Shown here in pieces: positions 4,062-27,962 of a stretch of DNA of 64,000 nt (positions are counted from its first letter, which is position 1; each line of letters opens with the position of its first letter). Source of the DNA: an uncultured Agathobacter sp. (GTDB lineage Bacteria; Bacillota; Clostridia; Lachnospirales; Lachnospiraceae); assembly GCA_944381555.1 (NCBI GenBank), contig CALWLL010000052.1, positions 1-64,000 of the forward strand. The letters run 5' to 3'. Position numbers and translations under genes: made by a program. Under the pieces are notes generated by a model. It did not search any database and was not told the origin of the DNA. It worked only from the letters and a program-made list of their open reading frames with translations.

Positions 4062-4073
4062 TTTCTAATCCTC

Positions 4074-7000
4074 CTAATCCGTAATCGCTGAAACCCCTAT
4101 GGTGATTTCCTCCAAAACATCTAACAATACCCACACCGTATCTAAAGAGGTAAACATGGTTACGTTATTCTCTATTGCTGTTCTTCTGATTGCCAGCCCA
4201 TCCTCATAATGGATGCCGGATAAAATCGCTCTTGTATTGATTACATAGCTTACATATCCGGTGCGGATTGCTTCTAGGATTTCTGTGCTGTTCTCACTGA
4301 GCTTCTTACGAATACGGGTCCGGATACCATGTGCCTTTAAAAATTCACCGGTTCCGACAGTTGCTTCAATATTAAAGCCCATGTCATAAAATCTTTTTAT
4401 AAGCGGCAAGGCTTCTTCTTTATCCTCGTCTGCAAGTGTAACGACTACCGTTCCGTAATTGTGCATCTTCACACCGGAAGCAAGCAGCGCTTTATACATC
4501 GCGCGGGACAGCTTTTTATCATATCCGATGGCTTCACCTGTGGATTTCATTTCCGGTGAAAGGTATGCGTCCATACCGTTTAACTTTGCAAAAGAAAAGG
4601 CTGGCGCTTTTACATACCATTTCTTTTTCTCCTCAGGGTATATGGTATTTATGCCCTGTGCTTTTAAACTTTCTCCGAGAATTACTTTTGTTGCGATATC
4701 TGCAAGAGAATATCCGGTTGCCTTTGATAAAAACGGCACGGTTCTTGAAGAACGCGGATTTACCTCTATAATGTAGATATTATCTTCTTTATCTACGATA
4801 AACTGAATATTAAACAATCCGATAATCCCGATTCCTATCCCCAGCTTTTTGGCATACTCTAAAATAACTTCCTTTACTTTATCAGAGATGCTGAAACTCG
4901 GATATACGCTGATAGAGTCCCCGGAATGAACGCCGGTTCTTTCCACCAGTTCCATAATTCCCGGAACAAACACGTCCGTTCCATCGCAAACCGCATCAAT
5001 TTCTACTTCCTTGCCACAGATATATTTATCTACCAGCACCGGTTTGTCTTCATCAATCTCAACCGCAGTTTTCAGATAATGACGCAGATGCTCTTCTTTT
5101 GCTACAATCTGCATGGCTCTTCCGCCTAGTACAAAGCTTGGACGTACCAGTACAGGGTAACCAATCTGCGCCGCAGCCTTTACGCCATCCTCAATATTGG
5201 TAACAGCCTGTCCTTTCGGCTGTGGAATATCAAGTTCTGACAGCAGCTTTTCAAAAGCATCTCTGTTTTCCGCTTTTTCAATTGCCGCGCAATCTGTACC
5301 TATGAGCTTCACACCCCTCTCTTCAAGAGGCTTTGCAAGATTGATGGCCGTCTGTCCGCCTAATGATACAATCACTCCGTCCGGTTTTTCCATCTCGATG
5401 ACATTCATAACATCTTCCACACAAAGCGGTTCAAAGTACAGCTTATCTGACGTCGTATAGTCCGTAGATACGGTTTCCGGATTATTGTTGATAATGATGG
5501 CCTCATACCCGGCTTCTTTGATAGTTTTTACCGCATGTACAGTAGAATAATCAAACTCTACCCCCTGACCGATTCGAATCGGACCGGAACCAAGTACAAT
5601 CATCTTCTTTCTGTCTTCTATTACCGATTCATTTTCCTCCTCATAGGTGGAATAAAAATACGGAACATAGCTTTCAAATTCCGAAGCGCAGGTATCAATC
5701 ATCTTATAGACAGGGAAAATACCAGAATCCTTACGCATTTTGAATATGTCTGTTTCCTCCATATTCCAGAATCCCGCGATTGCCTTATCGGAAAATCCAG
5801 TTTTCTTTGCCTGATACAGAACCTCTCTGTCACCCGGATGCAGTTTTACTGCTTCTTCCATATCAATGATTTTTTGCATTTTATCCAGAAAAAAGTTGTC
5901 GATTTTGGTTGCCTCTGCAATAACAGATATCCTGCAGCCTTGGCGCAGTAATTCCGCGATAGCAAAAATACGGTCATCCGTACCGATTTTGATGTATTCT
6001 GTCAGTTTTTCCTTCTCCATCTCTTTAAACTTAGGCATAAACAAATGATTTACTCCGGTTTCAAGAGAACGGATAGCTTTTAACAGACTCTCTTCAAAGG
6101 TTCTGCCGACACTCATTACTTCTCCGGTTGCTTTCATCTGGGTACCCAGTTTTTGATTTGCATCCGTAAATTTATCAAACGGAAAACGCGGTATCTTCGT
6201 TACTACATAATCAAGTGCAGGTTCAAACGATGCCGGTGTATTTACCAGCATAATTTCATCCAATGTCATACCCACACTAATCTTTGCAGACACTCTGGCA
6301 ATCGGGTATCCGCTGGCTTTTGAAGCAAGTGCTGAAGAACGGGAGACTCTTGGATTTACCTCAATCAGATAATATTGAAAGGAATGCGGGTCTAACGCAA
6401 ACTGCACATTGCAGCCGCCTTCTACCTTAAGTGCGCGGATAATTTTCAGTGCGCTGTCCCGCAGCATGTGATACTCCTTATTGGTAAGCGTCTGTGACGG
6501 ACACACCACAATGGAATCTCCCGTATGAATTCCGACCGGATCAAGATTTTCCATGTTACATACTGTAATCGCAGTATCGTTTACATCCCGGATGACTTCG
6601 TATTCAATCTCCTTAAAGCCCTTTATGCTCTTTTCTATCAATACCTGATGCACCGGAGACAATGCCAATGCATTCTTAATGAGTTCCATAAATTCCTGCT
6701 CATTATCCGCAAAACCGCCTCCGGTTCCTCCAAGCGTAAATGCAGGTCTTAAAACTACGGGATAGCCGATTTCTTTTGCAGCATGGATTGCCTCTTCAAC
6801 TGTATTGGCAATCACGGACGGTAAAACAGGTTCTCCCAATTCTTCACAAAGTTCCTTGAACAGTTCACGGTCCTCCGCACGTTCAATGCTTTCACTGCTG
6901 GTTCCAAGCAATTCTACCTGACATTCCTTTAAGACGCCCTTTTTCTCCAACTGCATGGCAAGATTTAATCCTGTCTGGCCTCCGATACCCGGTACAATTG

Positions 7001-7253
7001 CATCCGGACGCTCATGACGTACAATTTTCGCAACATATTCCAACGTCAATGGTTCCATATAGACCTTATCTGCAATTGTGGTATCCGTCATAATGGTAGC
7101 AGGGTTGGAATTGCAGAGAATCACTTCATATCCTTCTTCCCGCAATGCAAGGCATGCCTGTGTTCCCGCATAATCAAATTCTGCCGCCTGGCCAATGACA
7201 ATCGGTCCGGAACCAATGACAAGTATTTTCTTTATATCAGTTCTTTTTGCCAT
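4074..7253 (-). CDS. carB: Carbamoyl-phosphate synthase large subunit
   Basis: A full-length 1059-residue CarB that makes carbamoyl phosphate from bicarbonate, ATP and ammonia channelled from CarA, for pyrimidine and arginine synthesis. The duplicated ATP-grasp architecture is visible. The N-half begins [26 protein letters not shown] and the C-half begins about residue 553 with the parallel [22 protein letters not shown]. Each half carries an [20 protein letters not shown]-type metal-binding segment. An MGS-like allosteric domain follows after about 940. It overlaps the end of carA by 17 bases, implying translational coupling, and is followed by dapL after 12 bases. Only one carAB pair is in the window, so whether it serves arginine or pyrimidine synthesis is not decided here. 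Confidence 0.96.
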
Positions 7254-8337
7254 CTCTTGTTCCCTCCATCATTTCCATAAATTGGTCAAACAGATACATA
7301 CTGTCCTGTGGTCCGGGCGCGCTTTCCGGGTGGTATTGTACGCAAAAGACCTTATCCTTCTTACATGCAACACCTTCTACAGTAGAATCCAGCAGATTCC
7401 TATGTGTTACTTCAAGCCCTGTATTTTCGAGACTTTTTTCATCTACTGCATAAGAATGATTCTGCGAAGTGATTTCAATTTTACCGGTTAAGAGATTTTT
7501 TACCGGATGGTTTCCGCCCCTGTGACCAAACTTCAATTTATAGGTCTTCGCACCATATGCCAGTGAAATAATCTGATGCCCTAAGCAAATGCCGAATATC
7601 GGATATTTTCCTCTCAGATTTCTAACCAGCCTGATTACCGTTTCCACATCTGTCGGGTCTCCCGGTCCATTTGACAAGAAAATTCCGTCAGGCTTTATGC
7701 GTTCTACCTCTTCTTGGGATACGTTCCAAGGCAATACCGTTACATGACATCCCTTCTGATTCAGGCAGCGGATAATATTCTGTTTCATTCCGCAATCGAT
7801 TGCTGCTACATGATATCCTGCATCCGGGATAAAATATTCCTGCACGTTCTTCCTGCTGACCTTAGATACCGCATCTTTTGGCATCTCATACGCATGAAGT
7901 CTTTTTAGTCCTTCCTGAAGCGGCGTATCTGCCGAAGTGATAAGAACCTTGCGGCTTCCCAAATCCCTTATGGAGCGAATGAGCTTTCTCGTATCAATCC
8001 CGTAAATTCCCGGGATATGGTATTTTTCCATAATTTCCGCTAACGTATGCCTGCTGCGGAAATTGGATGGCTTGTCGTTATAATCTCTTACTGCCAGCCC
8101 TCCGATCGTAGGTATTGCAGTTTCAAAATCATCTTCTGCAATGCCATAATTCCCAATTAACGGATACGCCATTACGACTGTCTGGTAAGTATAAGATGGG
8201 TCGGAAATAATTTCCTGATATCCTACGGGCGATGTATTGAATACGATTTCTGTTATCCCATCTTCCATGCAGCCAAATCCATACCCATAGTACTCACTTC
8301 CATCTTCCAAAATCAGTTTTCTGTTGAATTTATTCAT
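7237..8337 (-). CDS. carA: Carbamoyl-phosphate synthase small subunit
   Basis: A 366-residue glutaminase subunit that releases ammonia from glutamine for CarB. The N-terminal CPSase-small domain (about 1-150) includes the [21 protein letters not shown] segment. The class I amidotransferase domain has the nucleophile Cys in [14 protein letters not shown] and the His/Glu pair in [11 protein letters not shown]. The ribosome site AAAGAGGG lies before the ATG at 8337. It lies 21 bases after purF and overlaps carB. It is one of four glutamine amidotransferases in this operon (guaA, pyrG, purF, carA). Confidence 0.96.
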
Positions 8338-8358
8338 AATACTTATTCCCTCTTTGCA

Positions 8359-9777
8359 TTAGACTCTCTCAGATAGCTTTCCTTCAAACCGATCTTTCCG
8401 AAGATCCTTCGGTATACTGGTTGGATACTCTCCATTAAAACATGCGGCACAATAATCTTTACTGCCTGCTAGTTTTTCCAAGCTTTCAATCGGCAGATAC
8501 CCTAAGGTATCCACACCGATAATCTGGGCGATTTCTTTCATACTGTGATGGCATGCAATCAAATTTTCCTCTGAGTCAATATCTGTTCCATAATAACATG
8601 GATGTAAAAACGGCGGGGCGGATATTCTCATGTGGATTTCCCTCGCCCCTGCATCCCGCAGGAGTTTTACAATGCGTTTGCTGGTTGTTCCCCTGACAAT
8701 TGAATCGTCTATCAGTACAACCCGCTTTTTCTCTATCACATCCTTCACCGGACTAAGCTTAATCCTTACCTGATCCAACCGCTCGTTTTGTCCCGGAGAA
8801 ATAAATGTTCTGCCTATATATTTGTTCTTAATCAATCCTATTCCATATGGAATCCCCGAGACTCTCGAAAATCCCAAAGCGGCTTCTAAACCGCTATCCG
8901 GTACGCCAATTACAATATCCGCATCTGCCGGATAACTTTTTGCCAGAAGCTCTCCTGCCCGCATCCGGGATTCCGAGACCCCTATCCCGTCAATGACCGA
9001 ATCCGGTCTTGCAAAATAAATATATTCAAAAATACAGGTCCTTCTCTTCTGCCTGCCGCAATGTTCTTTTCTTGATGCGACTCCCTTCTCGCTGAATACC
9101 AGAATTTCTCCCGGCAGCACATCCCTTATAAACACTGCGCCTACCGCAGATATAGCACAGCTTTCGGACGCAATTACATACGTTCCGTCCGGCATCTGTC
9201 CATAGCAAAGCGGTCGAAACCCATACGGGTCCCTCGCCGCAATCATCTTTGTGGAGGACATAAGAATGAGGGAATACGCACCTTCTATCGAGTTCATCGC
9301 ACGGCTTACCGCTTCTTCAATGCTTGGCGTCACAAGTCTTTCTCTGGTAACGACATAAGCAATGGTTTCTGTGTCGCTTGTCGTATGGAAAATAGCCCCC
9401 GACAGTTCTAAGCTGTCACGAAGCTGCAATGCATTACTTAAATTTCCATTGTGCGCGACTGCCATTTTCCCTTTCTGATGATTGACTTCAATGGGCTGGC
9501 AGTTATTTCTTGTCGTTCCTCCGGTGGTTCCATATCTGACATGTCCCACTGCCATATTTCCTTCTGACAAATGGGATAATGTGTCTTTGGAGAATACCTC
9601 GCTTACAAGTCCTAAGTCTTTATAGGAGGAAAATGCACCATCATCATTAACGACAATACCGCAGCTTTCCTGTCCTCTATGCTGCAGGGCATATAGTCCG
9701 TAATACACAATGCCCGCAACATTTTCTCTTTTTGTACTCATCACTCCGAATACACCACATTCTTCATGAACAGCCAT
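8359..9777 (-). CDS. purF: Amidophosphoribosyltransferase (PRPP amidotransferase)
   Basis: A 472-residue enzyme for the first committed step of purine synthesis, PRPP + glutamine to phosphoribosylamine. The N-terminal sequence MAVHEECGVFG shows a short propeptide whose removal would expose Cys7 as the N-terminal nucleophile of this class II amidotransferase. The PRPP-binding loop is VVLIDDSIVRGTTSKRIV. Cysteines near the middle (EHCGRQ, RRTCIFEYIYF) and the C-terminus (YCAACF) are placed as in the Bacillus-type enzyme, which carries a [4Fe-4S] cluster; the cluster is inferred. The AGGAGG site precedes the ATG at 9777, and the gene is 42 bases after pyrG. Confidence 0.95.
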   Translation of the reverse strand: MAVHEECGVFGVMSTKRENVAGIVYYGLYALQHRGQESCGIVVNDDGAFSSYKDLGLVSEVFSKDTLSHLSEGNMAVGHVRYGTTGGTTRNNCQPIEVNHQKGKMAVAHNGNLSNALQLRDSLELSGAIFHTTSDTETIAYVVTRERLVTPSIEEAVSRAMNSIEGAYSLILMSSTKMIAARDPYGFRPLCYGQMPDGTYVIASESCAISAVGAVFIRDVLPGEILVFSEKGVASRKEHCGRQKRRTCIFEYIYFARPDSVIDGIGVSESRMRAGELLAKSYPADADIVIGVPDSGLEAALGFSRVSGIPYGIGLIKNKYIGRTFISPGQNERLDQVRIKLSPVKDVIEKKRVVLIDDSIVRGTTSKRIVKLLRDAGAREIHMRISAPPFLHPCYYGTDIDSEENLIACHHSMKEIAQIIGVDTLGYLPIESLEKLAGSKDYCAACFNGEYPTSIPKDLRKDRFEGKLSERV

Positions 9778-9819
9778 GAACGTAATTCCTCCTATACTCC
9801 TATAATCATGTCCGCAGAG

Positions 9820-12980
<3,161 letters not shown>

Positions 12981-12992
12981 GTTTTTCCTCTC

Positions 12993-14270
12993 TTAAAACA
13001 TTGTGATGTATGCATCACGTTCCGCTCCTACAGATACATATTTAATTGGACATTCAATAACTTTTTCGATATAACGGATATATTCTAATGCTTCTTTTGG
13101 AAGGTCTTCCATAGTCCGGCATCCGCTGATGTCACAATGAAAGCCCGGTAAATATTCATAAACCGGTTTCGCTTCATTTAACTCCACGATTCCGGAAGGG
13201 AACGTATCTACTCTCTGTCCGTTTATCTCATAGGCTACACATACCGGAATTTTATCCATATAGGAAAGCACATCCAGTTTTGTAAGCGCCACATATGTGC
13301 AGCCCTGCATTTTTGCGCCGTATTTTGAAGCCACCACATCAAAACCGCCCACTCTTCTCGGTCTTCCGGTAGCCGCACCGTACTCTCCGCCTGCTGCACG
13401 AAGTTCTTCTGCTTCCGCACCAAACATCTCGCAGGTAAATGGTCCTTCCCCCACACAACTGGAGTATGCTTTCATAATTCCTATGTTCTCATCTAACTTT
13501 GCAAAAGGTACGCCTGCCCCGATTGGCGCGTAAGCAGCTAATGTCGTTGACGCAGAAGTATACGGATAAATTCCAAAATCAATATCTCTAAGTGCGCCAA
13601 GCTGTGCCTCAAACATAATGGACTTTCCTTCTGCAATTGCATTTCCCAGATACTCGGTTGTGTCACAGATAAACGGAACAAAGAACTCTCCATATTTTTT
13701 CAGCCATTCAAGCATTTCCTCTGTTTCTACAGGAGCATGTGCATATCCTTTTTCTACTGTGAGATTTTTCCACTCAATAAGGTCTTTTAATCTGTCCTCC
13801 AGACATTCCATATGCAGTAAATCGCCTAAACGCAGCGCCTTTTTCATATACTTATCCGCATATACCGGGGATATCCCTCTACGGGTAGAACCGAATTTCT
13901 TATCCAGAAGCCTGTCTTCTTCCAGACAATCCATAAGCTTATGATACGGCATACAGATAGTTGCCCTGTCACTGAGTTTTAAATGCTCCGGTGTTACTTT
14001 CACGCCCTTTTCTTCCAGTTTTTCTACTTCCCCGTATAGATGTTCTAAATCAATCACAACCCCCGGTCCTAAGATGTTTACGGTATTTTCTCTGCATATT
14101 CCGGAAGGCATCAGGTTCATAACGAACTTACCTTTCTCATTGATTACGGTATGTCCCGCATTATTACCGCCCTGATAACGGACTACAATATCATAATTTT
14201 CACTGAGAAGGTCAACCATACGGCCTTTTCCTTCATCTCCCCAGTTTGTTCCAACAATAGATGTAAGCAT
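12993..14270 (-). CDS. purA: Adenylosuccinate synthetase
   Basis: A 425-residue enzyme condensing IMP and aspartate with GTP to adenylosuccinate. The P-loop region reads GTNWGDEGKGR, a slight variant of the usual QWGDEGKGK with Asn and Arg substitutions. RYQGGNNAGHT and the IMP-loop segment FGSTRRGISPVYADK follow. The start is placed at the ATG at 14270 (MLTSIVGTNWG): it gives the normal family N-terminus and avoids an unrelated 23-residue extension that would run into the end of purB. A GGAAGG ribosome site precedes it. It is 28 bases after purB, so AMP-branch steps are adjacent. Confidence 0.93.
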   Translation of the reverse strand: MLTSIVGTNWGDEGKGRMVDLLSENYDIVVRYQGGNNAGHTVINEKGKFVMNLMPSGICRENTVNILGPGVVIDLEHLYGEVEKLEEKGVKVTPEHLKLSDRATICMPYHKLMDCLEEDRLLDKKFGSTRRGISPVYADKYMKKALRLGDLLHMECLEDRLKDLIEWKNLTVEKGYAHAPVETEEMLEWLKKYGEFFVPFICDTTEYLGNAIAEGKSIMFEAQLGALRDIDFGIYPYTSASTTLAAYAPIGAGVPFAKLDENIGIMKAYSSCVGEGPFTCEMFGAEAEELRAAGGEYGAATGRPRRVGGFDVVASKYGAKMQGCTYVALTKLDVLSYMDKIPVCVAYEINGQRVDTFPSGIVELNEAKPVYEYLPGFHCDISGCRTMEDLPKEALEYIRYIEKVIECPIKYVSVGAERDAYITMF

Positions 14271-14298
14271 ACTAATTCTTTTCCTTCCTTTTATATAT

Positions 14299-15732
14299 TT
14301 ATACATTGATTTGCGCTTCCACATTTTTGCATTGTTCACGCTCTAACAGCGGACGAACAACCTCTGTAACAAATTTTTCGCATTGATGCTCTGCCATACC
14401 CGTAAATTTTGCAGGCTCAAGCAAAGTTTCCAGTTCTGATTCCGTCAAATCAAATATACTGTCACCTTTTATTCGTTCAATCAGGTCATTTTCTTTTCCA
14501 TATAATTTTACCTGCTCTGCCGCTTTTACGGAGTGTCTGCGGATTGCCTCATGCAGTTCCTGTCTGTCCCCGCCTTTATTTTTCACACAATACATCAATA
14601 TATTTTCCGTAGCCATAAACGGAAGCTCTGCATCCAGATGCTTTTTAATAACCGCCGGATATACCTTAAGTCCCCGGATAACATTAATATACAGGTTTAA
14701 GATGGCATCCGTTGCAAGAAATGCCTCCGGTACAGACAATCGTTTGTTTGCCGAATCATCCAAAGTCCTTTCAAACCATTGTGCGGATGCAGTGATTGCC
14801 GTATTCTGCAAATCACACATTACATAACGTGCCAGCGATGCAATACGTTCGCTTCTCATTGGATTTCTCTTATATGCCATTGCAGAAGAACCAATCTGTT
14901 TTTCTTCGAACGGCTCATCTACTTCCTTTAAGTGACTGAGCAGCCGGATATCACCCGAAAACTTGGATGCACTCTGTGCAATACCGGATAATACCTGTAA
15001 AACTGCAAAATCAGCTTTTCTGGTATATGTCTGTCCACTGACATACTGACATTTGGAAAAGCCGATTTTGTCTGCAATCTTCTGCTCCAACTGCTCTACC
15101 TTTTCTTCATCGCCATCAAACAACTCTAAGAAGCTGGCACCTGTCCCGGTAGTTCCTTTACAGCCAAGCAGTCTCAAATTATTCAGTTGAAAATCAAGCT
15201 GTTCGATATCAAACAGCAGATCATTCATCCAAAGACAGGCTCTTTTCCCAACAGTTGTTGGCTGTGCTGCCTGAAAATGTGTATACGCAAGGGTAGGAAG
15301 TGCCTTATACTCCATTGCAAATTCGCTGAGTGCTTCTACTGCATTCAGAAGCAGGTTCTTAATCTGAACCAGCGCACTCTGCATAAGAATAATATCTGTG
15401 TTATCCCCCACATAGCATGAGGTCGCCCCTAAATGAATAATACCTGCTGCTTTCGGACATGCGTCACCAAAGGTATGAACATGCGCCATAACATCATGGC
15501 GAAGCTCACTTTCGTATTTTTTTGCCTTTTCATAATCGATATTATAGATTTGAGACTTCATCTCCTGAATCTGTTCATCCGAAATAGGGAGTCCAAGTTC
15601 CTGTTCGCTTTCTGCAAGCGCAATCCATAATTTCCGCCATGTTGAAAACTTTCTGTCATTTGAGAATATACTTTGCATCTCTTTGCTTGCGTAACGCTCA
15701 CATAAAGGGGACTGATAAATATCTGTTCTCAT
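14299..15732 (-). CDS. purB: Adenylosuccinate lyase
   Basis: A 477-residue member of the fumarase/aspartase superfamily that acts twice in purine synthesis, splitting SAICAR and adenylosuccinate with release of fumarate. The superfamily signature GSSAMAYKRNPMRSE with the catalytic flexible-loop Ser is present at about residues 277-291, and HLGATSCYVGDN lies near 105. The ATG at 15732 is used rather than the GTG one codon upstream. It begins 6 bases after the purC stop, so purC and purB are almost certainly cotranscribed. Confidence 0.93.
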   Translation of the reverse strand: MRTDIYQSPLCERYASKEMQSIFSNDRKFSTWRKLWIALAESEQELGLPISDEQIQEMKSQIYNIDYEKAKKYESELRHDVMAHVHTFGDACPKAAGIIHLGATSCYVGDNTDIILMQSALVQIKNLLLNAVEALSEFAMEYKALPTLAYTHFQAAQPTTVGKRACLWMNDLLFDIEQLDFQLNNLRLLGCKGTTGTGASFLELFDGDEEKVEQLEQKIADKIGFSKCQYVSGQTYTRKADFAVLQVLSGIAQSASKFSGDIRLLSHLKEVDEPFEEKQIGSSAMAYKRNPMRSERIASLARYVMCDLQNTAITASAQWFERTLDDSANKRLSVPEAFLATDAILNLYINVIRGLKVYPAVIKKHLDAELPFMATENILMYCVKNKGGDRQELHEAIRRHSVKAAEQVKLYGKENDLIERIKGDSIFDLTESELETLLEPAKFTGMAEHQCEKFVTEVVRPLLEREQCKNVEAQINV

Positions 15733-15738
15733 CACTTG

Positions 15739-16458
15739 TTACTCCTTCTCTATTTCTAATCCTAATCTTCTGGCAACCTCAATGTATGCCTCTTCCACAT
15801 TTCCCAAATCCCTGCGGAAACGGTCTTTGTCCATCTTATCGCCACTTTCGGCATCCCATAAACGACATGTATCCGGAGATATTTCATCTGCCAGAATAAT
15901 CTTTCCATGAAAACGTCCAAATTCTATCTTGAAATCTATCAGCCGGAGTCCTGCCTTTAAAAACTCCAGTTTCAAAATATCATTCACCATAAATGCATAT
16001 TTCTTTATCGTTTCTATCTCATTTGAAGTTGCGAGTTTAAGTGCTTTTGCAAAAGAACTGTTAATAAGCGGATCTCCAAGTTCATCATTCTTATAAGAAA
16101 ATTCAATGGTAGGCTCTTCGAATTGCGTTCCTTCCTCCACTCCCAAGCGCTTAGAAAAACTTCCCGTAGCAACATTACGCACAATTACCTCAAGCGGAAC
16201 AATTTCTACTCTGCGGACTGCGGTCTCGCGGCCGTTTAATTCCTGAATATAATGTGTCGGCACACCTTTTGCTTCTATTTTCTGAAACAGCAGATTCGTC
16301 ATTCGGTTGTTGATTGCACCTTTACCTGCAATCGTTCCTTTTTTCAATCCGTTAAAGGCCGTTGCATCATCCTTATAAGACACAATTAAAACATCCGGAT
16401 CCTCCGTCAAGAAAACCTTTTTGGCTTTTCCCTCATATAGCTGCTCACATTTTTGCAT
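15739..16458 (-). CDS. purC: Phosphoribosylaminoimidazole-succinocarboxamide synthase (SAICAR synthetase)
   Basis: A 239-residue enzyme joining CAIR and aspartate, the substrate-forming step for PurB. It starts CEQLYEGKAKKVFLTEDPDVL with the YEGKAK signature and contains RNVATGSFSKRLGVEEG and LIDFKIEFGRFHGKIILADEISPD, both diagnostic. It is the first gene of the nine-gene minus-strand operon; the AAGGAGG site is about 10 bases before the ATG. Upstream lies an ANTAR-type attenuator and a strong promoter. The other purine genes (purD, E, K, L, M, N, H) are not in this window. Confidence 0.95.
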   Translation of the reverse strand: MQKCEQLYEGKAKKVFLTEDPDVLIVSYKDDATAFNGLKKGTIAGKGAINNRMTNLLFQKIEAKGVPTHYIQELNGRETAVRRVEIVPLEVIVRNVATGSFSKRLGVEEGTQFEEPTIEFSYKNDELGDPLINSSFAKALKLATSNEIETIKKYAFMVNDILKLEFLKAGLRLIDFKIEFGRFHGKIILADEISPDTCRLWDAESGDKMDKDRFRRDLGNVEEAYIEVARRLGLEIEKE

Positions 16459-16502: not shown

Positions 16503-16556
16503 AAAAAAAGACAAAGACGCCTTTAAGTTTTTACTAAACTTAAAGACCCCTTTGCC
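16503..16556 (-). terminator. Leader terminator (attenuator) of the purC operon
   Basis: On the minus strand the leader can form an outer stem GGCAAAG/CUUUGUC and an inner stem UUUAAGUUU/AAACUUAAA separated by a small internal loop, followed by seven U residues (16509-16503). This is an intrinsic terminator some 45 bases ahead of purC. Its 5' arm contains the loop and 3' arm of the ANTAR-type hairpin, so the two structures exclude each other. Confidence 0.78.
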
Positions 16557-16560
16557 TTCA
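16541..16560 (-). promoter_or_regulatory. ANTAR-type antiterminator hairpin at the 5' end of the purC operon mRNA
   Basis: The minus-strand stem UGAAGGC/GUCUUUA (7 bp, one G-U pair) closes a six-base loop AAAGGG with A at loop position 1 and G at position 4, which is the known recognition rule for ANTAR RNA-binding proteins. The predicted transcription start lies only one or two bases upstream, so the RNA would begin with this hairpin. Formation blocks the downstream terminator. The proposed binder is the ANTAR protein at 29944-30528. The structure and sequence are seen; the binding is inferred. Confidence 0.72.
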
Positions 16561-16568
16561 CGCGTGTA

Positions 16569-16597
16569 ATCTTACACCCTTTCGCAATCTTTGTCAA
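16569..16597 (-). promoter_or_regulatory. Promoter of the purC-dapL operon
   Basis: On the minus strand, a perfect -35 TTGACA (16597-16592) is followed after exactly 17 bases by a -10 TAAGAT (16574-16569). A 6+6 inverted sequence GTGTAA/TTACAC with a 2-base centre (16564-16577) covers the -10. A similar sequence covers the -10 of the glnN promoter. Confidence 0.8.
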
Positions 16598-17748: not shown

Positions 17749-19329
17749 TTATTTTCCACTGTCTCCATAGTTGGAAAGTACTCTTGCGGATGGGTCATTT
17801 ACATTGCAGCCTTCCCATTCTTTGTTCGGCATCCAGAAATCCACCACCATCTCGGCCTGGTCTTTGTAGTATTTTTCAAAAATCTCTCTATATAATAAGG
17901 ATTCTTTTGTAAATGGTCTGGCAAATGTATACTTCTGGCATTCTCTTTCAAACGCTTCATCCGTATACATCTTCTTAGCATATTCCTTCAAGTAATCAAC
18001 CATAGAATGACCTACTGCGTCGGAAAATGCCGCCTTTTCTCTCCAGAGAATTTCATCCGGCAGATAATCCCCTTCTTCAAATGCATGACGAAGCAGATAT
18101 TTGCCTTTTCCATACCGATTGAGTTTTAATTCCGGGTCCACCGCCATTACATATTTCACGAAATCAAGATCTCCAAACGGAACCCGTGCTTCCAATGAAT
18201 TTACCGAAATGCAACGGTCTGCACGAAGTACATCATACATATGCAGTTCCCGGATCCTCTTTTGCGATTCTTTCTGGAATGCCTCTGCATCCGGGGCAAA
18301 ATCCGTATATTTATATCCGAACAGTTCATCTGATATTTCACCTGTCAGAAGCACCCGGATGTTGGTCTGTTCATGAACTGCCTTACATACTAAATACATA
18401 CCCATAGATGCACGGATTGTGGTAATGTCATAAGTCCCTAACATCGCAATGACTGTTTCCAGCGAGTCCAATACCTCTTTGGGCGTCATATAAACTTCCG
18501 TATGCTCGCTGCCAATGTATTCCGCTACCTGCTTTGCATATTTTAAGTCAATGGCATCTTCGCTCATTCCAATGGCAAAGGTCTTTATCGGTTCCCTGCT
18601 TTTCTTTGCAGCAATCGCACACACCAGAGAGGAATCCAGACCGCCTGAGAGTAAAAATCCTACCTTTGCGTCTGCAACAAGCCTTTTTTCCACGCCTGCC
18701 ACAAGCTTATCGTGAATATTCCGGCAAACGGTTTCCAGATCGTCCTGACAAATAGCATCTATCTTTGCAATGTCACAATAGCAGATGAAGCTGCCATCTT
18801 TATAATAGTGTCCCGGCGGGAAGGGCATAACCTTTTCTACTATACCGGTCAGATTTTTGGCTTCACTTGCAAACACAATCACACCATTACTGTCATAACC
18901 ATAGTATAGAGGGCGGATTCCGATAGGATCTCTTGCCGCAATATATTCTTCTGTTTCTCCATCGTATATGATACAGGCAAATTCAGCATCCAGCATGGCA
19001 AACATTTCTGTTTTGTATTCTTTATACAATGGCAAAAGAATTTCACAATCCGATTCACTTTTGAATGTATACTTTTCGGAAAGCTCCCTTTTTATTTTCT
19101 CAAATCCATAAATTTCACCATTACAGACCACATAGCTTTCACCAAGCTGGAAGGGCTGCATACCGGATGGCATCAAGCCCATAATCGCCAGTCTGTGAAA
19201 ACCAAGAAAACCATTTCCTGTATCTACTATCCTGCTGTCATCCGGTCCTCTTGAAATCGTCTTTCGGAATCCTTCCAAAAATGTATCATAGGCAGCACTG
19301 CGGCTGCAATAACCCATAATAGAACACAT
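17749..19329 (-). CDS. asnB: Asparagine synthetase (glutamine-hydrolysing)
   Basis: A 526-residue AsnB making asparagine from aspartate, ATP and glutamine. Met is followed directly by Cys2 (MCSIMGYCSR), the N-terminal nucleophile of class II amidotransferases. The amidotransferase domain (about 1-190) has SRGPDDSRI, GFHRLAIMG and VVCNGEIY. The synthetase domain carries the PP-loop FLLSGGLDSSLVCAIAAK at about 226-243 and the segment LLTGEISDELFGYKYTDFAP. The GGAGGA ribosome site lies upstream of the ATG. It is third in the glnN-amt-asnB unit, 88 bases after amt, so probably under the same nitrogen control. Confidence 0.95.
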   Translation of the reverse strand: MCSIMGYCSRSAAYDTFLEGFRKTISRGPDDSRIVDTGNGFLGFHRLAIMGLMPSGMQPFQLGESYVVCNGEIYGFEKIKRELSEKYTFKSESDCEILLPLYKEYKTEMFAMLDAEFACIIYDGETEEYIAARDPIGIRPLYYGYDSNGVIVFASEAKNLTGIVEKVMPFPPGHYYKDGSFICYCDIAKIDAICQDDLETVCRNIHDKLVAGVEKRLVADAKVGFLLSGGLDSSLVCAIAAKKSREPIKTFAIGMSEDAIDLKYAKQVAEYIGSEHTEVYMTPKEVLDSLETVIAMLGTYDITTIRASMGMYLVCKAVHEQTNIRVLLTGEISDELFGYKYTDFAPDAEAFQKESQKRIRELHMYDVLRADRCISVNSLEARVPFGDLDFVKYVMAVDPELKLNRYGKGKYLLRHAFEEGDYLPDEILWREKAAFSDAVGHSMVDYLKEYAKKMYTDEAFERECQKYTFARPFTKESLLYREIFEKYYKDQAEMVVDFWMPNKEWEGCNVNDPSARVLSNYGDSGK

Positions 19330-19417: not shown

Positions 19418-21133
19418 TTACTCTACATCCTGTAATGCGTCATATCCCTCTTCACCGGTACGAACCTTTACTACGTTTTCTACATCATAAACGAAAATCT
19501 TACCATCCCCGATATGGCCTGTGTAAAGTACTTTCTTGGCAGTTTCAATAACGCTGCGTACAGGGACTTTGCTTACAACAATATCAACCTGTACCTTCGG
19601 AAGCAGGTTTGCTTCCACCTGTACGCCACGATAATATTCCGGTTTCCCTTTCTGAACACCGCAGCCTAATACATGAGATACGGTCATACCGGTAATACCA
19701 AGGTTCATCATCGCTGCCTTTAATGCTTCAAAACGTGATTCCTTACAGATGATTTCAACCTTTGTTAATTTTGGCGTACCTTCTTCAAAGGTTGGAACCT
19801 TCTTAACCGGAATTGCTTCTGCAACAGGAGTATCTCCCGTAACCATAACCGGTGCCTCCTCATCATCCGCCGTAGCTGTATCCGGAAGCATTGCTAAGCC
19901 TGCATATGCCGTAAGTAAACCATGTTCTGAAATATCAAGTCCGGCAATTTCATCCTCGGCATCTGCTCTAAGTCCAATGGTATATTTGATTAACAGGAAT
20001 ACTATGGTAATAACAATCGTTACATATATAGCAACCGAAAGAACGCCAAGTGCCTGAACTCCTAACAGATGGAATCCTCCGCCATAGAATAAGCCTGCCT
20101 CCGTTGTCACACCTGTAGCAAATAAACCTGTAAGGATTGTTCCTGTTGCGCCACATACACCATGAACAGATATTGCACCTACCGGGTCATCAATCTTTGC
20201 TATCTTATCAAAAAATTCAACTGCCAGAACAATCAATATTCCACAGATAAGACCGGTTGCCGCCGCACCTGCCGGACTTACCGCATCACATCCTGCTGTA
20301 ATGCCAACAAGACCTGCTAACGCTGCATTGTATGTCATGGAAACATCCGGTTTCTTATAGCGAATCCATGTGAAAATCAATGTTGTACAGCAAGCTACTG
20401 CTGCTGCCATATTGGTATTAAAGAATACCCTTCCTGCTGTTTCCATCAGCGCATCACTATCCATGCCTACGGTAGAGGCACCATTAAATCCAAACCAGCA
20501 GAACCAGAGAATGAATACGCCCAGCGCTGCAAATGTCAGGTTATGTCCAAGAATTGCTTTTGGTTTTCCATTCTTATCATACTTGCCAATACGAGGTCCT
20601 AAGATTTTAGCGCCAATGAGAGCGCAGATACCGCCAACCATATGAACGGCTGTAGAACCTGCAAAATCATGGAAGCCTAACTCAGACAACCAGCCGCCGC
20701 CCCAAATCCAGTGACCGGAAATCGGGTAGATGAAAAGGGAAATAGCAGCAGAATAAATACAGTAAGCACTGAATTTTGTTCGCTCGGCCATAGCACCAGA
20801 TACAATTGTTGCAGAAGTTGCGCAAAATACAGTCTGGAAAATCACATATGCCCAAAGCGGAACCCCTGCCGGCAAAATATGACTGTAATCTTCGCGAATC
20901 AGTGGGTCAAAGTCTCCGATAATCCCATTTCCCGCACCAAACATCAGCCCAAATCCTATCAGCCAGAAAGCTGGTGTCCCAATACAGAAGTCCATCAGAT
21001 TTTTCATCAGGATATTACCGGTATTCTTTGCTCTTGTAAATCCGGCTTCACACATGGAAAACCCTGCCTGCATGAAAAACACCAATGCAGTGCCGATAAG
21101 CACCCATATTGTATTAACAGCACTGTAACTCAT
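19418..21133 (-). CDS. amt: Ammonium transporter fused to a PII (GlnK) regulatory domain
   Basis: A 571-residue fusion. Residues about 1-410 are an Amt/Rh-type channel with eleven hydrophobic segments and the family motifs SGAMAERTKFSAY, SGHWIWGGGWL, DFAGSTAVHMVGG and GFNGASTVGMD. After a polar linker (about 420-455), residues about 460-571 form a PII domain. This has the beta-alpha-beta start KLTKVEIICKESRFEALKAAM, a T-loop region with PEYYRGVQVEANLLPK, and the GHIGDGKIFV segment before the C-loop. PII proteins sense 2-oxoglutarate and ATP/ADP and block Amt channels, so the fusion puts the gate on the transporter. The ATG at 21133 is preferred because AGAAGGA lies 7 bases before it. It is 60 bases downstream of glnN. 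Confidence 0.93.
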   Translation of the reverse strand: MSYSAVNTIWVLIGTALVFFMQAGFSMCEAGFTRAKNTGNILMKNLMDFCIGTPAFWLIGFGLMFGAGNGIIGDFDPLIREDYSHILPAGVPLWAYVIFQTVFCATSATIVSGAMAERTKFSAYCIYSAAISLFIYPISGHWIWGGGWLSELGFHDFAGSTAVHMVGGICALIGAKILGPRIGKYDKNGKPKAILGHNLTFAALGVFILWFCWFGFNGASTVGMDSDALMETAGRVFFNTNMAAAVACCTTLIFTWIRYKKPDVSMTYNAALAGLVGITAGCDAVSPAGAAATGLICGILIVLAVEFFDKIAKIDDPVGAISVHGVCGATGTILTGLFATGVTTEAGLFYGGGFHLLGVQALGVLSVAIYVTIVITIVFLLIKYTIGLRADAEDEIAGLDISEHGLLTAYAGLAMLPDTATADDEEAPVMVTGDTPVAEAIPVKKVPTFEEGTPKLTKVEIICKESRFEALKAAMMNLGITGMTVSHVLGCGVQKGKPEYYRGVQVEANLLPKVQVDIVVSKVPVRSVIETAKKVLYTGHIGDGKIFVYDVENVVKVRTGEEGYDALQDVE

Positions 21134-21193
21134 AAACATTCCTTCTTTCTTTCATAATTTTTATATCTTTTTCCTAACACACATTTCCTTACA

Positions 21194-23290
21194 CTATCTT
21201 ACACTGAACAGCAGATCGCCATAAGTCGGGAATGGCCAGTATTTCTTTGCTGTTACGGTTTCTGCTTCGTCACAGGCAAGTCTTAACTCACTCATCTTCA
21301 CAAGGACAACATCACGGATCATGTATGATTCCGAAATAATCTCCTCCTGGCTTTGCAGTTCAACCAGAGCATTTTCCAGTTCCTCTGTTTTAATGGCAAT
21401 CCTGTCTGTTAATGTAGAAAGTCTCTTAATCAATCCGCTTTCATAACCGCAAACCAAAGCAGAATCCACAGCTTTTTTCGCAGCAAATGTTTTTGCCAGC
21501 TCTCTTGTATAGGCTTCTACTGCCGGAGCGATCTGCGTTCTTGCCATATCAACCATTGTATTCGCCTCAATGATAACGGTCTTACAATAATTCTCAAGCA
21601 TAATGTCGCATCTGGACTTTAATTCTGCTTCTGAGAAAACTTTATGAGAAGTCAGCATTTTTACGTTTTTCTCATCCAGTAAATGCGGCATACAATCCGG
21701 TGTTGTACGGTAATTCAAAAGACCTCTTTCTTCGGTGGCTTCTTTTATCCATGTGTCATCATAACCGTTTCCGTTGAAGATAATCTTCTTATGATCCTTA
21801 ATGGTCTTACGAATCATCTCGTGCAGTGCTTCCTCGAAGTTTTCTGCTTTTTCCAGTCTGTCTGCATAAATCTTAAGGCTTTCTGCAACTGCGCTGTTTA
21901 GCATGATGTTTGCACATGCGATACTGTTGGAAGAACCAAGCATACGGAATTCAAATTTATTTCCGGTAAAAGCAAATGGTGATGTACGGTTACGGTCTGT
22001 CGTATCCCTGTTAAACTTCGGCAAAACATCAACCCCAAGCCGCATCTGCGTCTTTTGTGTCCCTTCATATGGAGTATTGTTTTCAATCGCTTCCAGTACG
22101 GCATTTAATTCATCTCCAAGGAACATGGATACTACCGCAGGAGGAGCTTCATTTGCGCCAAGACGATGGTCATTTCCTGCTGTAGCAACGGAAAGACGAA
22201 GCAGGTCCTGATAATCGTCTACCGCCTTGATTACTGCGCATAAGAACAGTAAGAACTGCGCGTTTTCATATGGTGTTTCTCCCGGCGAAAGCAGATTTAC
22301 GCCCCCATCCGTAGCAATTGACCAGTTATTATGTTTACCGCTTCCGTTTACCCCTGCAAACGGTTTTTCATGAAGCAGACAAACCAGCCCGTGCTTTGCC
22401 GCAACCTTTTGCATGATTTCCATTGTGAGCTGATTGTGGTCCGTTGCAATATTGGTGGTAGAATAAATCGGAGCCAGCTCATGCTGCGCCGGAGCAACTT
22501 CATTATGTTCTGTTTTTGCAAGTATTCCTAATTTCCAAAGCTCCTCATTCAGTTCCTCCATATATGCCGCTACTCTTGGTTTGATTACTCCGAAGTAATG
22601 ATCATCCATTTCCTGACCCTTCGGAGGTTTTGCTCCAAACAGGGTGCGGCCGGTAAAACGTAAATCAGGACGCTTGTCGTACATCGCTTTATCAATCAGG
22701 AAGTATTCCTGCTCCGGCCCTACGGATGTGCGGACACATTTTACATCATCATGTCCAAATAAATGAAGAATACGAAGCGCCTGCTTATTCAGCGCTTCCA
22801 TCGAACGCAGCAGCGGAGTCTTCTTATCCAATGCCTCACCGCCGTAAGAACAAAAGGCTGTAGGAATACACAATGTCTTTCCTTTGATAAATGCATAAGA
22901 TGTAGGATCCCATGCGGTATATCCTCTTGCTTCAAATGTTGCCCGCAAGCCTCCGGAAGGGAAAGAAGATGCATCCGGTTCGCCTTTTATCAGCTCTTTT
23001 CCGGAAAACTCCATAATCACTCCTCCATCCGGCGATGGAGAAATAAAACTGTCATGCTTTTCCGCTGTTATGCCTGTCAATGGCTGAAACCAGTGCGTAT
23101 AATGAGTAGCACCATTTGCAACAGCCCAATCCTTCATAGCTGTTGCGACTGCGTTCGCTACTCCAATATCAAGTTTTGCTCCTTCATCAATGGTTTTTCT
23201 GAGTGATTGATATACTTTTGCAGATAAATTTGCTTTCATTACTCTGTCATCAAACACCAGACATCCAAAATACTCTGGAATATTCTTCAT
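21194..23290 (-). CDS. glnN: Glutamine synthetase type III
   Basis: A 698-residue GSIII that assimilates ammonia into glutamine. Family marks are the N-terminal [15 protein letters not shown], the metal/glutamate-site segments [10 protein letters not shown] and [20 protein letters not shown], and [15 protein letters not shown]. The length fits GSIII (about 700) and is far from type I (about 440). It is the first gene of the glnN-amt-asnB unit and divergent from the glutamate-synthase operon. The leader carries two successive attenuators with ANTAR-type hairpins and a near-consensus promoter. Confidence 0.95.
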
Positions 23291-23336: not shown

Positions 23337-23377
23337 AAGACGTCCTTAATGCTCTTGTATGCATTAAAGACGCCTTT
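23337..23377 (-). terminator. Second leader terminator of glnN
   Basis: On the minus strand, AAAGGCGUCUUUAAUGC pairs with GCAUUAAGGACGUCUUU as a continuous 17-bp stem (two G-U pairs) with an eight-base loop. The T-tail is weak (CTTTATTATA), so this second attenuator may be leaky or act as a pause. It shares its 5' arm with the second ANTAR-type hairpin. Confidence 0.65.
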
Positions 23378-23384
23378 GCCTTTA
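23365..23384 (-). promoter_or_regulatory. Second ANTAR-type hairpin in the glnN leader
   Basis: The stem UAAAGGC/GUCUUUA (7 bp) closes the loop AAAGGC with A1 and G4. It begins about 45 bases after the end of the first terminator, so the glnN leader carries two complete hairpin-plus-terminator modules in series. Confidence 0.72.
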
Positions 23385-23391
23385 TCTCTGT

Positions 23392-23404: not shown

Positions 23405-23406
23405 TG

Positions 23407-23446
23407 AAAAAAGCGTCTTCAAGGTACCTACCTCAAAGACGCCTTT
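23407..23446 (-). terminator. First leader terminator of glnN
   Basis: A minus-strand 17-bp stem starting AAAGGCGUCUUUGAGGU, with loop AGGU and a 3' arm ACCUUGAAGACGC, runs into UUUUUU. It is a strong intrinsic terminator within about 50 bases of the transcription start, sharing its 5' arm with the first ANTAR-type hairpin. Confidence 0.8.
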
Positions 23447-23452
23447 GCCTTC
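23435..23452 (-). promoter_or_regulatory. First ANTAR-type hairpin at the 5' end of glnN mRNA
   Basis: The stem GAAGGC/GUCUUU with hexaloop AAAGGC (A1, G4) begins about three bases after the predicted transcription start. The stem is the same as in the purC leader and the loop differs only at position 6. Confidence 0.75.
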
Positions 23453-23461
23453 ATGGATGTG

Positions 23462-23563: not shown

Positions 23564-23572
23564 TAAGCCATG

Positions 23573-23588
23573 TGAGCAAAGGTGTTCA
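23573..23588 (+). promoter_or_regulatory. ANTAR-type hairpin at the 5' end of the glutamate synthase mRNA
   Basis: The stem UGAGC/GUUCA with hexaloop AAAGGU keeps A1 and G4. Compared with the purC and glnN hairpins the stem bases have changed on both sides (GAAGGC/GUCUUU to UGAGC/GUUCA) while pairing is kept, which is covariation support for the structure. Confidence 0.72.
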
Positions 23589-23635
23589 TTTTGGGGCAGA
23601 TTTTTCTGCCTGTAAAATGAGCGCCTTTGTTTTTT
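23577..23635 (+). terminator. Leader terminator of the glutamate synthase operon
   Basis: CAAAGGUGUUCAUUUU pairs over 16 bp with AAAAUGAGCGCCUUUG. A second stem GGCAGA/UCUGCC with a U4 loop is stacked on top, and six U residues follow. It excludes the ANTAR hairpin because both need 23577-23588. Confidence 0.82.
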
Positions 23636-23662: not shown

Positions 23663-24757
23663 ATGAAAATTGAAGGTCAAGTACGAATTCCTTCCGGATG
23701 TGCGATTGCAGCAGTAATTTCCAAAGAAGGAAACAAAATGTCCGGTGAGATGATCACAAACTCCATGAAGCCAATGCATGACCGTTCCAACGGACTAGGC
23801 GGCGGTTTTGCCGGGTATGGCATTTATCCTGAATATAAAGAATATTATGCATTGCATCTGTTTTTTGATACCCGCGCAACACGAAAAGATTGTGAGGCTT
23901 TCTTAAAAGAAAGATTTGAAATTGTACAGTCCGAAATCATTCCAACCCGAAAGATTCCGGCTATTACCGATGAGCCTGTTATATGGAGATACTTTGTATC
24001 ACCTTTAAAATCCGTACTCGCATCCATGCAGTTAGACGAAAAAGAATTTGTCGCAAGAACAGTCATGAAAATCAATACGCAAATGCATGGCGCCTATGTC
24101 TTTTCCAGCGGCAAAAATATGGGTGCCTTCAAGGCCGTAGGTTTTCCTGAGGATGTCGGCGTCTTTTATAAACTAGAGGAATATGAAGGATATTCCTGGA
24201 CTGCTCACGGACGTTATCCGACAAATACGCCGGGCTGGTGGGGCGGTGCCCATCCGTTTACACTTTTAGATTATTCTATCGTACATAACGGGGAAATCTC
24301 TTCCTATGATGCCAATCGCAGATTCATTGAAATGTTTGGCTATAAATGTACGCTTCAGACAGATACCGAAGTGATTACATATATTATGGATTATCTTCTT
24401 CGCGTACAAGGCCTTACTCTTGATGAAGCTGCAAGCGTAATTGCCGCTCCATTCTGGAGTACCATTGCAGAAAAAGCTAATACGCAGGAACAGAAAAAAT
24501 ATACTTACCTGCGGACAATGTTTCCCAGTCTTCTTATAACCGGTCCATTTTCTATTGTATTGGGATTTGACGGAGGCCTGATGGCTTTAAATGACCGCTT
24601 AAAGCTGCGCTCTATGGTAGTCGGCGAAAAGGATGATAAAGTATTTATTGCCAGCGAAGAAGCTGCCATCCGTGCCATCGAGCCGAATGCAGAAAATATC
24701 TGGTCTCCTGCCGGCGGAGAACCTGTAATTGTAAAAGTAAAGGAAGGTGCATATTAA
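23663..24757 (+). CDS. Glutamate synthase amidotransferase subunit (class II GATase)
   Basis: A 364-residue stand-alone glutaminase that supplies ammonia to the synthase encoded next. The candidate nucleophile is Cys13 in RIPSGCAIAAVIS, which would need removal of a 12-residue leader to be N-terminal. Other class II marks are AHGRYPTNTPGWWGGAHPFTLLDYSIVHNGEISSYDANRR and TDTEVITYIMDYL. It ends with the stop codon overlapping the next ATG by one base (24757), so it is coupled to gltB. Split amidotransferase, synthase and GXGXG subunits are the arrangement known from archaeal-type and clostridial glutamate synthases. Confidence 0.9.
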   Translation: MKIEGQVRIPSGCAIAAVISKEGNKMSGEMITNSMKPMHDRSNGLGGGFAGYGIYPEYKEYYALHLFFDTRATRKDCEAFLKERFEIVQSEIIPTRKIPAITDEPVIWRYFVSPLKSVLASMQLDEKEFVARTVMKINTQMHGAYVFSSGKNMGAFKAVGFPEDVGVFYKLEEYEGYSWTAHGRYPTNTPGWWGGAHPFTLLDYSIVHNGEISSYDANRRFIEMFGYKCTLQTDTEVITYIMDYLLRVQGLTLDEAASVIAAPFWSTIAEKANTQEQKKYTYLRTMFPSLLITGPFSIVLGFDGGLMALNDRLKLRSMVVGEKDDKVFIASEEAAIRAIEPNAENIWSPAGGEPVIVKVKEGAY

Positions 24758-26262
24758 TGAGCGTTCAATTTATATATCCTGAATTTGAAGTTATCCGAAA
24801 TGAAAGCAGATGTATCGCCTGTAGAGTCTGCGAGCGACAATGCGCCAATGGCGTACATCAATATGATGAAGAACAACATATCATGAAATGTGACGAAAGC
24901 CAATGCGTAAACTGCCAGCGGTGCGTTTCTCTTTGTCCAACCCATGCCTTGAAAATCGTAAAAAGCGATTGTACTTTACGCGAGAATGCCAATTGGCAAA
25001 ATGATACGATTAAAGAAATCTATAAACAGGCAAACAGCGGTGGCGTTCTTTTATCATCTATGGGTAATCCCAAACCATTTCCTGTGTATTGGGATAAACT
25101 TCTAATCAATGCCTCTCAGGTAACAAATCCATCTATCGATCCTTTAAGAGAGCCAATGGAAACCAGAGTCTATCTGGGTAAAAAGCCTCAGAAAGTGCAA
25201 CGTAACAGTGATGGAAAATTGGATTGTACCTTACCTCCTCAGCTTAAGCTGTCCATGCCGGTTATGTTTTCTGCAATGAGCTATGGCTCTATCAGTTATA
25301 ACGCCCACAAATCTCTGGCTTTAGCCGCTGCTGAACTTGGTATTTTATACAATACCGGCGAAGGCGGTCTGCATGAAGACTTTTATTGTTATGGTGAAAA
25401 TACAATCGTTCAGGTGGCTTCCGGACGCTTCGGCGTTCATGAAGAATATCTAAATGCCGGTTCTGCGATTGAAATCAAAATGGGACAGGGTGCAAAACCG
25501 GGTATCGGCGGCCATCTGCCGGGTACAAAAATCGTAGGTGATGTATCACGCACACGAATGATACCGGAAGGCTCCGATGCTATCTCTCCTGCCCCACACC
25601 ATGATATTTATTCTATTGAAGATTTACGGCAGCTTGTCTTTTCTTTAAAAGAAGCTACCGAATACAAAAAACCGATTATTGTAAAGGTTGCAGCCGTTCA
25701 TAACATTGCAGCCATTGCCAGCGGTATTGCAAGAAGCGGCGCTGACATCATTGCTATTGACGGTTTCCGGGGCGGTACAGGCGCAGCGCCTACCAGAATC
25801 CGTGACAATGTCGGCATCCCGGTTGAACTTGCGTTAGCCGCTGTTGACCAACGGCTTCGTGATGAAGGCATCCGTAACAATATTTCCCTTGTAGTCGGCG
25901 GAAGTATCCGCAGCGCTTCTGATGTTGTCAAGGCAATTGCACTCGGTGCAGATGCATGTTACATCGCAACTGCCGCACTTCTGGCCTTAGGCTGCCATCT
26001 TTGCAGAACCTGCCAAAGCGGCAAGTGCAACTGGGGTATTGCCACACAGCGGCCGGAGCTTGTAAAAAGACTAAATCCCGAAATTGGAAGCCAGCGGCTG
26101 GTTAATCTGATGACCGCCTGGAAACACGAAATCAAAGAACTCATGGGCGGAATGGGCATCAATTCTATTGAGGCTTTACGCGGAAACCGCCTGATGCTTC
26201 GCGGCATTGGTTTGAATGAAAAAGAACTTGAGATTCTCGGCATTTCTTATGCAGGTGAATAA
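24757..26262 (+). CDS. gltB: Glutamate synthase, FMN-binding synthase subunit with ferredoxin domain
   Basis: A 501-residue catalytic subunit making glutamate from 2-oxoglutarate and ammonia. The N-terminus carries two [4Fe-4S] motifs (CIACRVCERQC about 22-32 and CVNCQRCVSLCP about 49-60). The FMN/TIM-barrel domain follows with PVMFSAMSYGSIS, TGEGG, EIKMGQGAKPGIGG, ISPAPHHDIYSIEDL, IDGFRGGTGAAP and VGGSIRSASDVVKAIALGADA. Three more cysteines (CHLCRTCQSGKC, about 409-420) sit at the 3Fe-4S cluster position of GltB. The amidotransferase and GXGXG parts of a classical large subunit are separate genes here. It is followed after 15 bases by a ferredoxin gene. Confidence 0.93.
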   Translation: MSVQFIYPEFEVIRNESRCIACRVCERQCANGVHQYDEEQHIMKCDESQCVNCQRCVSLCPTHALKIVKSDCTLRENANWQNDTIKEIYKQANSGGVLLSSMGNPKPFPVYWDKLLINASQVTNPSIDPLREPMETRVYLGKKPQKVQRNSDGKLDCTLPPQLKLSMPVMFSAMSYGSISYNAHKSLALAAAELGILYNTGEGGLHEDFYCYGENTIVQVASGRFGVHEEYLNAGSAIEIKMGQGAKPGIGGHLPGTKIVGDVSRTRMIPEGSDAISPAPHHDIYSIEDLRQLVFSLKEATEYKKPIIVKVAAVHNIAAIASGIARSGADIIAIDGFRGGTGAAPTRIRDNVGIPVELALAAVDQRLRDEGIRNNISLVVGGSIRSASDVVKAIALGADACYIATAALLALGCHLCRTCQSGKCNWGIATQRPELVKRLNPEIGSQRLVNLMTAWKHEIKELMGGMGINSIEALRGNRLMLRGIGLNEKELEILGISYAGE

Positions 26263-26277
26263 GGGAGGTGTTATAAA

Positions 26278-26712: not shown

Positions 26713-26713
26713 T

Positions 26714-27961: not shown

Positions 27962-27962
27962 T

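Follow-up and report, generated by a model that had tools for sequence, protein, structure and literature searches.

NitR of Clostridium saccharobutylicum, reportedly described by Stutz et al. in 2007, is the closest known system to the leader analysed here. In the accessible part of one account, NitR is a GS/GOGAT ANTAR antiterminator that is induced under nitrogen limitation, and the likeness lies in the link, through antitermination, between an ANTAR protein and glutamine synthetase and glutamate synthase (PMC6316151); at the present locus, the ANTAR gene is likewise linked to glutamine synthetase and glutamate synthase genes. Compared by description, the two systems differ in the nucleotide operons and single-hexaloop leaders, neither of which is mentioned for NitR in the accessible part of that account (PMC6316151).

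Known ANTAR target RNAs, as far as the accessible parts of two sources describe them, contain two hexaloops with A at position 1 and G at position 4 (A1/G4; PMC3369931; PMC8934654), and loop base 3 is free in the ANTAR consensus. The EutV/EutW, NasR, and AmiR systems share with the present leader an A1/G4 hexaloop hairpin that is mutually exclusive with an intrinsic terminator, whereas their targets have, in the same accessible texts, two hexaloops and the present leader has one, at the predicted transcript start (PMC3369931; PMC8934654). EutV contacts one hexaloop at a time, yet needs both to block termination, and the text available to us leaves single-hexaloop targets as a possibility (PMC8934654). 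The ANTAR regulons of Desulfotomaculum, in the accessible portion of their description, resemble the present case in placing many attenuators over nitrogen-assimilation units within one genome but are of the dual-hairpin kind, and the targets named in that text include transporters, nitrogenase, and the synthases of glutamate, glutamine, and arginine; purine and CTP genes are not named there (PMC3369931). A literature search that covered mainly open-access papers found no ANTAR-controlled purine or CTP-synthase operon.

The purC leader and its genomic setting

The window (the whole stretch of DNA analysed, 64,000 nt) is part of a genome assigned to an uncultured Agathobacter sp. Upstream of its purC operon lie asnB, the gene of an ammonium transporter and P-II fusion, and glnN, and beyond them the divergent glutamate synthase genes, glnA, and the ANTAR gene (Table 1), which a sequence-only reading had put about 13 kb from the purC leader and for which we measured 13.3 kb. 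That reading also spoke of a nine-gene purine/pyrimidine operon; the nine genes are present, but dapL is not a nucleotide gene. The dapL gene (LL-diaminopimelate aminotransferase, 2877-4061) closes the operon and again adjoins pyrG/purF of the same regulon in L192, L202, L285, L296, L299, and L302. Between asnB and purC, the plus strand (16914-17561) encodes a protein of 215 aa that has a lipoprotein-like start and matches nothing in NCBIfam, and in locus L070 asnB adjoins purC where the window has this gene between them.

Table 1. Coordinates of the leader elements and genes in the window.
Feature	Position	Strand	Remarks
Operon purC-purB-purA-guaA-pyrG-purF-carA-carB-dapL	2877..16458	-	Nine genes
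Intrinsic terminator of the purC leader	16503..16559	-	23 pairs, T7; P1 within its 5' arm
Hairpin P1 (proposed antiterminator)	16541..16560	-	Hexaloop AAAGGG, loop 16553-16548; proposed ANTAR site
purC-operon promoter	16569..16597	-	TTGACA-17-TAAGAT; 10/12 consensus matches; sigma70-like
asnB	17749..19329	-	Asparagine synthase with glutamine amidotransferase domain
Ammonium transporter	19418..21139	-	C-terminal P-II domain (fusion); inside the proposed regulon
glnN	21194..23290	-	Glutamine synthetase type III
glnN attenuator 2	23365..23384	-	Tandem; hexaloop AAAGGC; weak U-tract
glnN attenuator 1	23434..23453	-	Hexaloop AAAGGC and terminator
Glutamate-synthase attenuator hairpin	23572..23589	+	Hexaloop AAAGGT, then long terminator
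Split glutamate synthase genes	23663..28685	+	GATase, central/FMN, Fe-S, oxidoreductase, GXGXG
glnA	28704..29915	+	Glutamine synthetase; directly 5' of the ANTAR gene
ANTAR antiterminator protein	29944..30528	+	Pseudo-receiver without phospho-acceptor Asp

On the minus strand, 95 bases (16597-16503) take the purC leader from promoter to T-run, and the consensus promoter, the A1/G4 hairpin just after it, and the competing intrinsic terminator that had been read there were all recovered, the promoter agreeing with consensus at 10 of 12 positions. The hairpin P1 has the sequence AAGGC-[AAAGGG]-GTCTT, with A as loop base 1 and G as loop base 4, and reaches 7 pairs if weak outer pairs are counted (16560-16541). 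The terminator (pairing 16559-16507, T7 at 16509-16503) encloses P1, has a stability of -28.2 kcal/mol (z -7.9), and was equalled by 0 of 200 shuffles; P1 and the terminator are mutually exclusive because P1 sits in the terminator 5' arm. Loop base 6 (G) lies opposite a G in the terminator and is unpaired. At the purC leader, Rfam gave no family at gathering score, the weak sub-threshold matches being miRNA models, and a known riboswitch or Rfam leader was rejected for want of a covariance-model match at that score. An inverted repeat flanks the attenuator, with TTACACGCG at 16569-16561 and TGTGTAA at 16503-16497 (GCGTGTAA in L069).

The genome has a second, divergent purC (36%) and carB (44%), with identities like those of some same-genus genomes, and the window proteins match the Lachnospiraceae-like locus L070, recorded as an Enterocloster bolteae MAG, at 77-91%. 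Contig C52 (window 1-64000) may have been transferred or mis-binned, which leaves the RNA finding unaffected; in that event, the single ANTAR gene counted for the genome below would depend on the true owner of the contig.

Copies of the element in the genome

The 16-base core AAGGCAAAGGNGTCTT has exactly three zero-mismatch sites in the 2.31-Mb genome, one at purC (16558-16543) and two at glnN (23451-23436 and 23382-23367), and the next-best sites are four with 2 mismatches each, of which two (L043 and L044) look coding-like by eye and are without a T-run. When both window strands were scanned for any A1/G4 hexaloop hairpin with a stem of at least 5 that is overlapped by a terminator, the three matches were those of purC, glnN, and glutamate synthase, and the second glnN copy, with its weak U-tract, was detected under relaxed rules. 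The hairpin type of the purC leader had been said to recur at glnN and glutamate synthase, and it does so as the exact core in the former (twice) and as a close variant in the latter. Across 1.65 Mb of other loci, the general scan gave 9 matches, including 4 regulon leaders (L069, L070, L071, and L142), against 3 in reversed sequence; the relaxed scan gave 29 against 12, and relaxed scans include chance matches.

Conservation upstream of purC

Conservation of the A1/G4 hexaloop and competing terminator before purC in relatives, which had been set as a test beforehand, was seen in L069, L071, L210, L287, and L303; a TTGACA promoter is present in each except L287, where none is recognisable. L069 and L071 are Lachnospiraceae MAGs whose purC is 85% identical to that of the window, and their promoter has the same arrangement, followed by P1 with the loop AAAGGU and by the terminator directly 5' of purC; the element comes after a gene read as glutamate-synthase small subunit, and loop base 6 is a U that lies opposite an A in the terminator. 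L303 is more distant (purC 49% identical) and still has P1 and a terminator before purC. L070, L142, and L301 have purC in a same-strand glnN-(amt)-asnB-purC arrangement with the element at its head. Among 80 purC loci, the leaders of 40 of which were inspected by eye and the others by scan alone, the element, or regulon neighbours with the element, occurred only in L069, L070, L071, L080, and L142. By scan, no element was found in L082, which lies near asnB and glnA, and the order-level purC loci L002-L009 had no such leader by eye or by scan. Same-genus relatives (n = 23) are unable to test the leader, since their matches were only 31-36% identical in 21 and absent in 2.

The element across related genomes

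Model R1, built from 12 elements, matched 82 of 299 family genomes (E 0.05) and 31 of 391 class genomes (E 0.005), many of the weak matches being chance. From 37 of the 82 family genomes, 40 regions were taken, of which 25 had an element no more than 600 nt from a target gene, 4 an element without a target, and 11 none; the 18 regions from 16 of the 31 class genomes comprised 13 with a target-linked element, 1 with an element and no target, 3 with none, and L294, whose elements lie about 820-890 nt before purC and were left out of the set used below. That set, which required a hexaloop, a terminator, and a target gene within 600 nt, which includes the window and the purC loci, and from which L071 was excluded as a duplicate of L069, holds 92 distinct elements in 44 loci. 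Loop conservation in the later-gathered elements is by construction, because an A1/G4 loop and C-G closure were required.

Most elements (65/92) precede glnN (38) or glutamate synthase (27), targets in relatives being named by tblastn with the window proteins and some glutamate-synthase matches being only 24-27% identical. Fifteen precede nucleotide genes, namely pyrG (7, in seven loci), purC (5), and guaA, purF, and carA (1 each), and the others stand before asnB (7), glnA (4), and amtB (1). Of the 34 non-window loci in which an element precedes glnN or asnB, 27 also carry purine, pyrimidine, or glmS genes farther down that strand; transcription was assumed to be continuous there, and the genes between are presumed to be co-transcribed. 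In Mediterraneibacter massiliensis (NZ_LN913001.1, G049), a named isolate, glutamate synthase and pyrG-purF-dapL are headed by elements, and glnN by two. Where elements stand in tandem before glnN, their spacing is 64 to 137 bases, and by scan every one has a terminator of its own. Two serial single-hexaloop attenuators 64-88 bases apart stand before glnN in the window (23365-23453) and in L285, L291, L292, L296, L298, L299, and L302.

Structure of the element

Covariation of the P1 stem in 12 elements amounted to 15 double-change cells, a number reached by 0 of 500 shuffles, none of which equalled the covariation score either, and a slid P1 register gave at most 5; these elements had been picked as hairpins, which biases the percentage paired, and in the same 12, neither the pairs changed on both sides nor the pair types rose above shuffles. 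Loop base 3 has a standard partner in the predicted terminator in 83 of the 92 elements (A-U 68, U-A 5, G-C 5, C-G 2, and G-U 3, with 9 unpaired) and in 15 of the 19 where it is not A; 4 of the 7 U loops, versus 0 of 85 others, come with the fold-independent word CC-A-TT. The promoter -10 ends 10-17 nt before the closing C in 60/92 elements, compared with 0.6% of shuffles, and has the same placement in 12 of the 15 distinct nucleotide-gene leaders. If transcription starts the usual 6-8 nt past the -10, P1 would be made of the first transcribed bases.

The element has the six-base A1/G4 loop on at least three pairs and the mutually exclusive intrinsic terminator by which ANTAR targets are recognised. 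In the window purC leader, a second A1/G4 hexaloop a few bases downstream, as in dual-hexaloop targets, is absent. Within 40 nt, a second A1/G4 hexaloop accompanies 9 of the 92 elements, the other fifteen base choices giving 5 to 32, and the purC leader of L069 has a possible second A1/G4 hairpin. The element is a single-hexaloop attenuator and not the known dual-hexaloop ANTAR motif; of the ANTAR-type attenuator claimed by the sequence-only reading, the A1/G4 hexaloop with its competing terminator stands, while the likeness to a standard dual-hexaloop target does not.

The ANTAR protein and its association with glnA

The ANTAR gene of the window is the sole PF03861 match in the genome, and a profile of 21 ANTAR proteins matches structures that we take to be those of Rv1626, EutV, AmiR, and NasR. 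On the alignment, the residue at the position of EutV Asp54 is Asn in the window protein and, in most members of the second clade, Gly, so control by phosphorelay seems unlikely; the pseudo-receiver without Asp and the partner gene glnA set the window protein apart from EutV. Several RNA-contact residues of EutV/EutW, NasR, and AmiR are kept: by residue count on the alignment, the EutV G4 contacts Lys149 and Glu160 and the Met172 plug are conserved, EutV Tyr164 is His in these proteins, as in AmiR, and the contacts Arg142 and Arg168 are not conserved.

In the regions sampled from genomes without an R1 match, glnA lay near the ANTAR gene in all 20. At these motif-independent loci, 5 of 12 any-hexaloop attenuators were A1/G4 versus 1/16 expected, four of them in glnA leaders, and visual inspection of the 20 glnA leaders showed, in 8, a promoter-like stretch together with an A1/G4 hexaloop and a terminator; in the glnA leader of L247, loop base 1 is G. 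An ANTAR match was found in 40 of 43 element genomes, the 43 counting G388 with its more distant element, versus 265 of 299 family genomes, and co-occurrence was dropped as proof, the two proportions being about equal. All 23 genomes of the family set with a target-linked element have ANTAR, and the 34 family genomes without ANTAR yielded no such element, but only 3 of these had an R1 match to check, numbers too small to decide.

Proposed mechanism and alternative explanations

The promoter, the hairpin, the exclusive terminator, their conservation and covariation, and the leaders shared between operons, all as read from sequence, suggest that the purC leader is probably a transcription attenuator of ANTAR/NitR type, and a single regulator acting on RNA probably switches nitrogen supply together with nucleotide synthesis. 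In the scheme that we infer for start site, ANTAR binding, antitermination, and polarity, transcription would start at the foot of P1, which would be the first structure to leave RNA polymerase, and a free ANTAR dimer, encoded beside glnA, would grip P1 by its A1/G4 hexaloop. With P1 held, the terminator would be unable to recruit its bases and polymerase would read through into the nine-gene operon; with the ANTAR protein absent or masked, P1 would be absorbed by the terminator and transcription would stop. The presence of the element at glnN (twice), glutamate synthase, and purC would make one regulon, in which glutamine synthesis is joined to the glutamine-consuming amidotransferases encoded by purF, guaA, pyrG, and carA, and in relatives by asnB and glmS. 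The likeliest sensor would be GlnA or its feedback-inhibited form, freeing ANTAR at low glutamine, because the ANTAR protein is without a phosphorylatable Asp and its gene follows glnA; this assignment to GlnA is nevertheless less likely than not.

Further points count against an ANTAR/NitR-type reading. It is physiologically puzzling that makers and consumers of glutamine would be controlled in the same direction; one reading would be that, when glutamine is low, more is needed of the enzymes that have to capture it. Without a clear second hexaloop, the need of EutV for both, as given in the accessible text (PMC8934654), also weighs against this reading.

The alternative that survives best, while itself unlikely, is a protein-read attenuator whose reader is not ANTAR, namely another RNA-binding protein or GlnA/PII itself, and it draws on the single hexaloop and on three genomes that hold purC-linked elements without an ANTAR-domain match. 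Neither PF03861 nor profile A4 gave a match in G611 and G388; in G042, PF03861 gave none and the A4 matches stop before or at the ANTAR domain edge. In G611, the gene after glnA is amidotransferase-like by its translation. Against such a reader, G042 and G388 are also without a good glnA match, which suggests a missing assembly stretch, the ANTAR gene is found within the regulated operons or next to them, and ANTAR is matched by the A1/G4 loop, the C-G pair that closes it, the location at the start site, the overlap with the terminator, and the nitrogen regulon. Less probable still is a leader that has nothing to do with nitrogen, either an attenuator that is simply constitutive or one that senses nucleotides as a riboswitch or by start-site attenuation: the element is short, at the start site, and heads nucleotide genes, as such a leader would, but no Rfam family exceeds its gathering score, and the core is identical at glnN and closely similar at glutamate synthase. 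A chance hexaloop inside an ordinary terminator arm, as might be suspected from the location of P1 in that arm, from self-complementary runs that may form small hairpins by chance, and from the 5 of 9 general-scan matches that are not regulon leaders, is scarcely credible given the stem covariation, the three exact copies found only in regulon leaders, the hexaloop conserved at orthologous leaders, and the recurrence in 44 loci.

For the ANTAR/NitR-type attenuator, a wider and more tentative proposal, somewhat less probable than its opposite, is that in Lachnospiraceae and related clostridia a one-hexaloop ANTAR switch at the transcript start defines a glutamine-economy regulon. GlnA would mask or release an unphosphorylatable ANTAR protein, which would then co-activate the assimilation of ammonia along with the glutamine-dependent amidotransferases that act in making purines, CTP, GMP, carbamoyl phosphate, asparagine, and amino sugars, and one hexaloop would suffice because it is the first RNA to emerge.

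Control of nucleotide synthesis is also exerted by other routes, among them PurR and riboswitches. The element would offer natural single-hexaloop targets, a possibility raised in the accessible part of the EutV work (PMC8934654). If the ANTAR/NitR-type reading is true, nucleotide synthesis in these clostridia, several of which come from animal guts according to their source records, would be coupled to nitrogen status through one small protein acting on RNA, separately from PurR and riboswitches.
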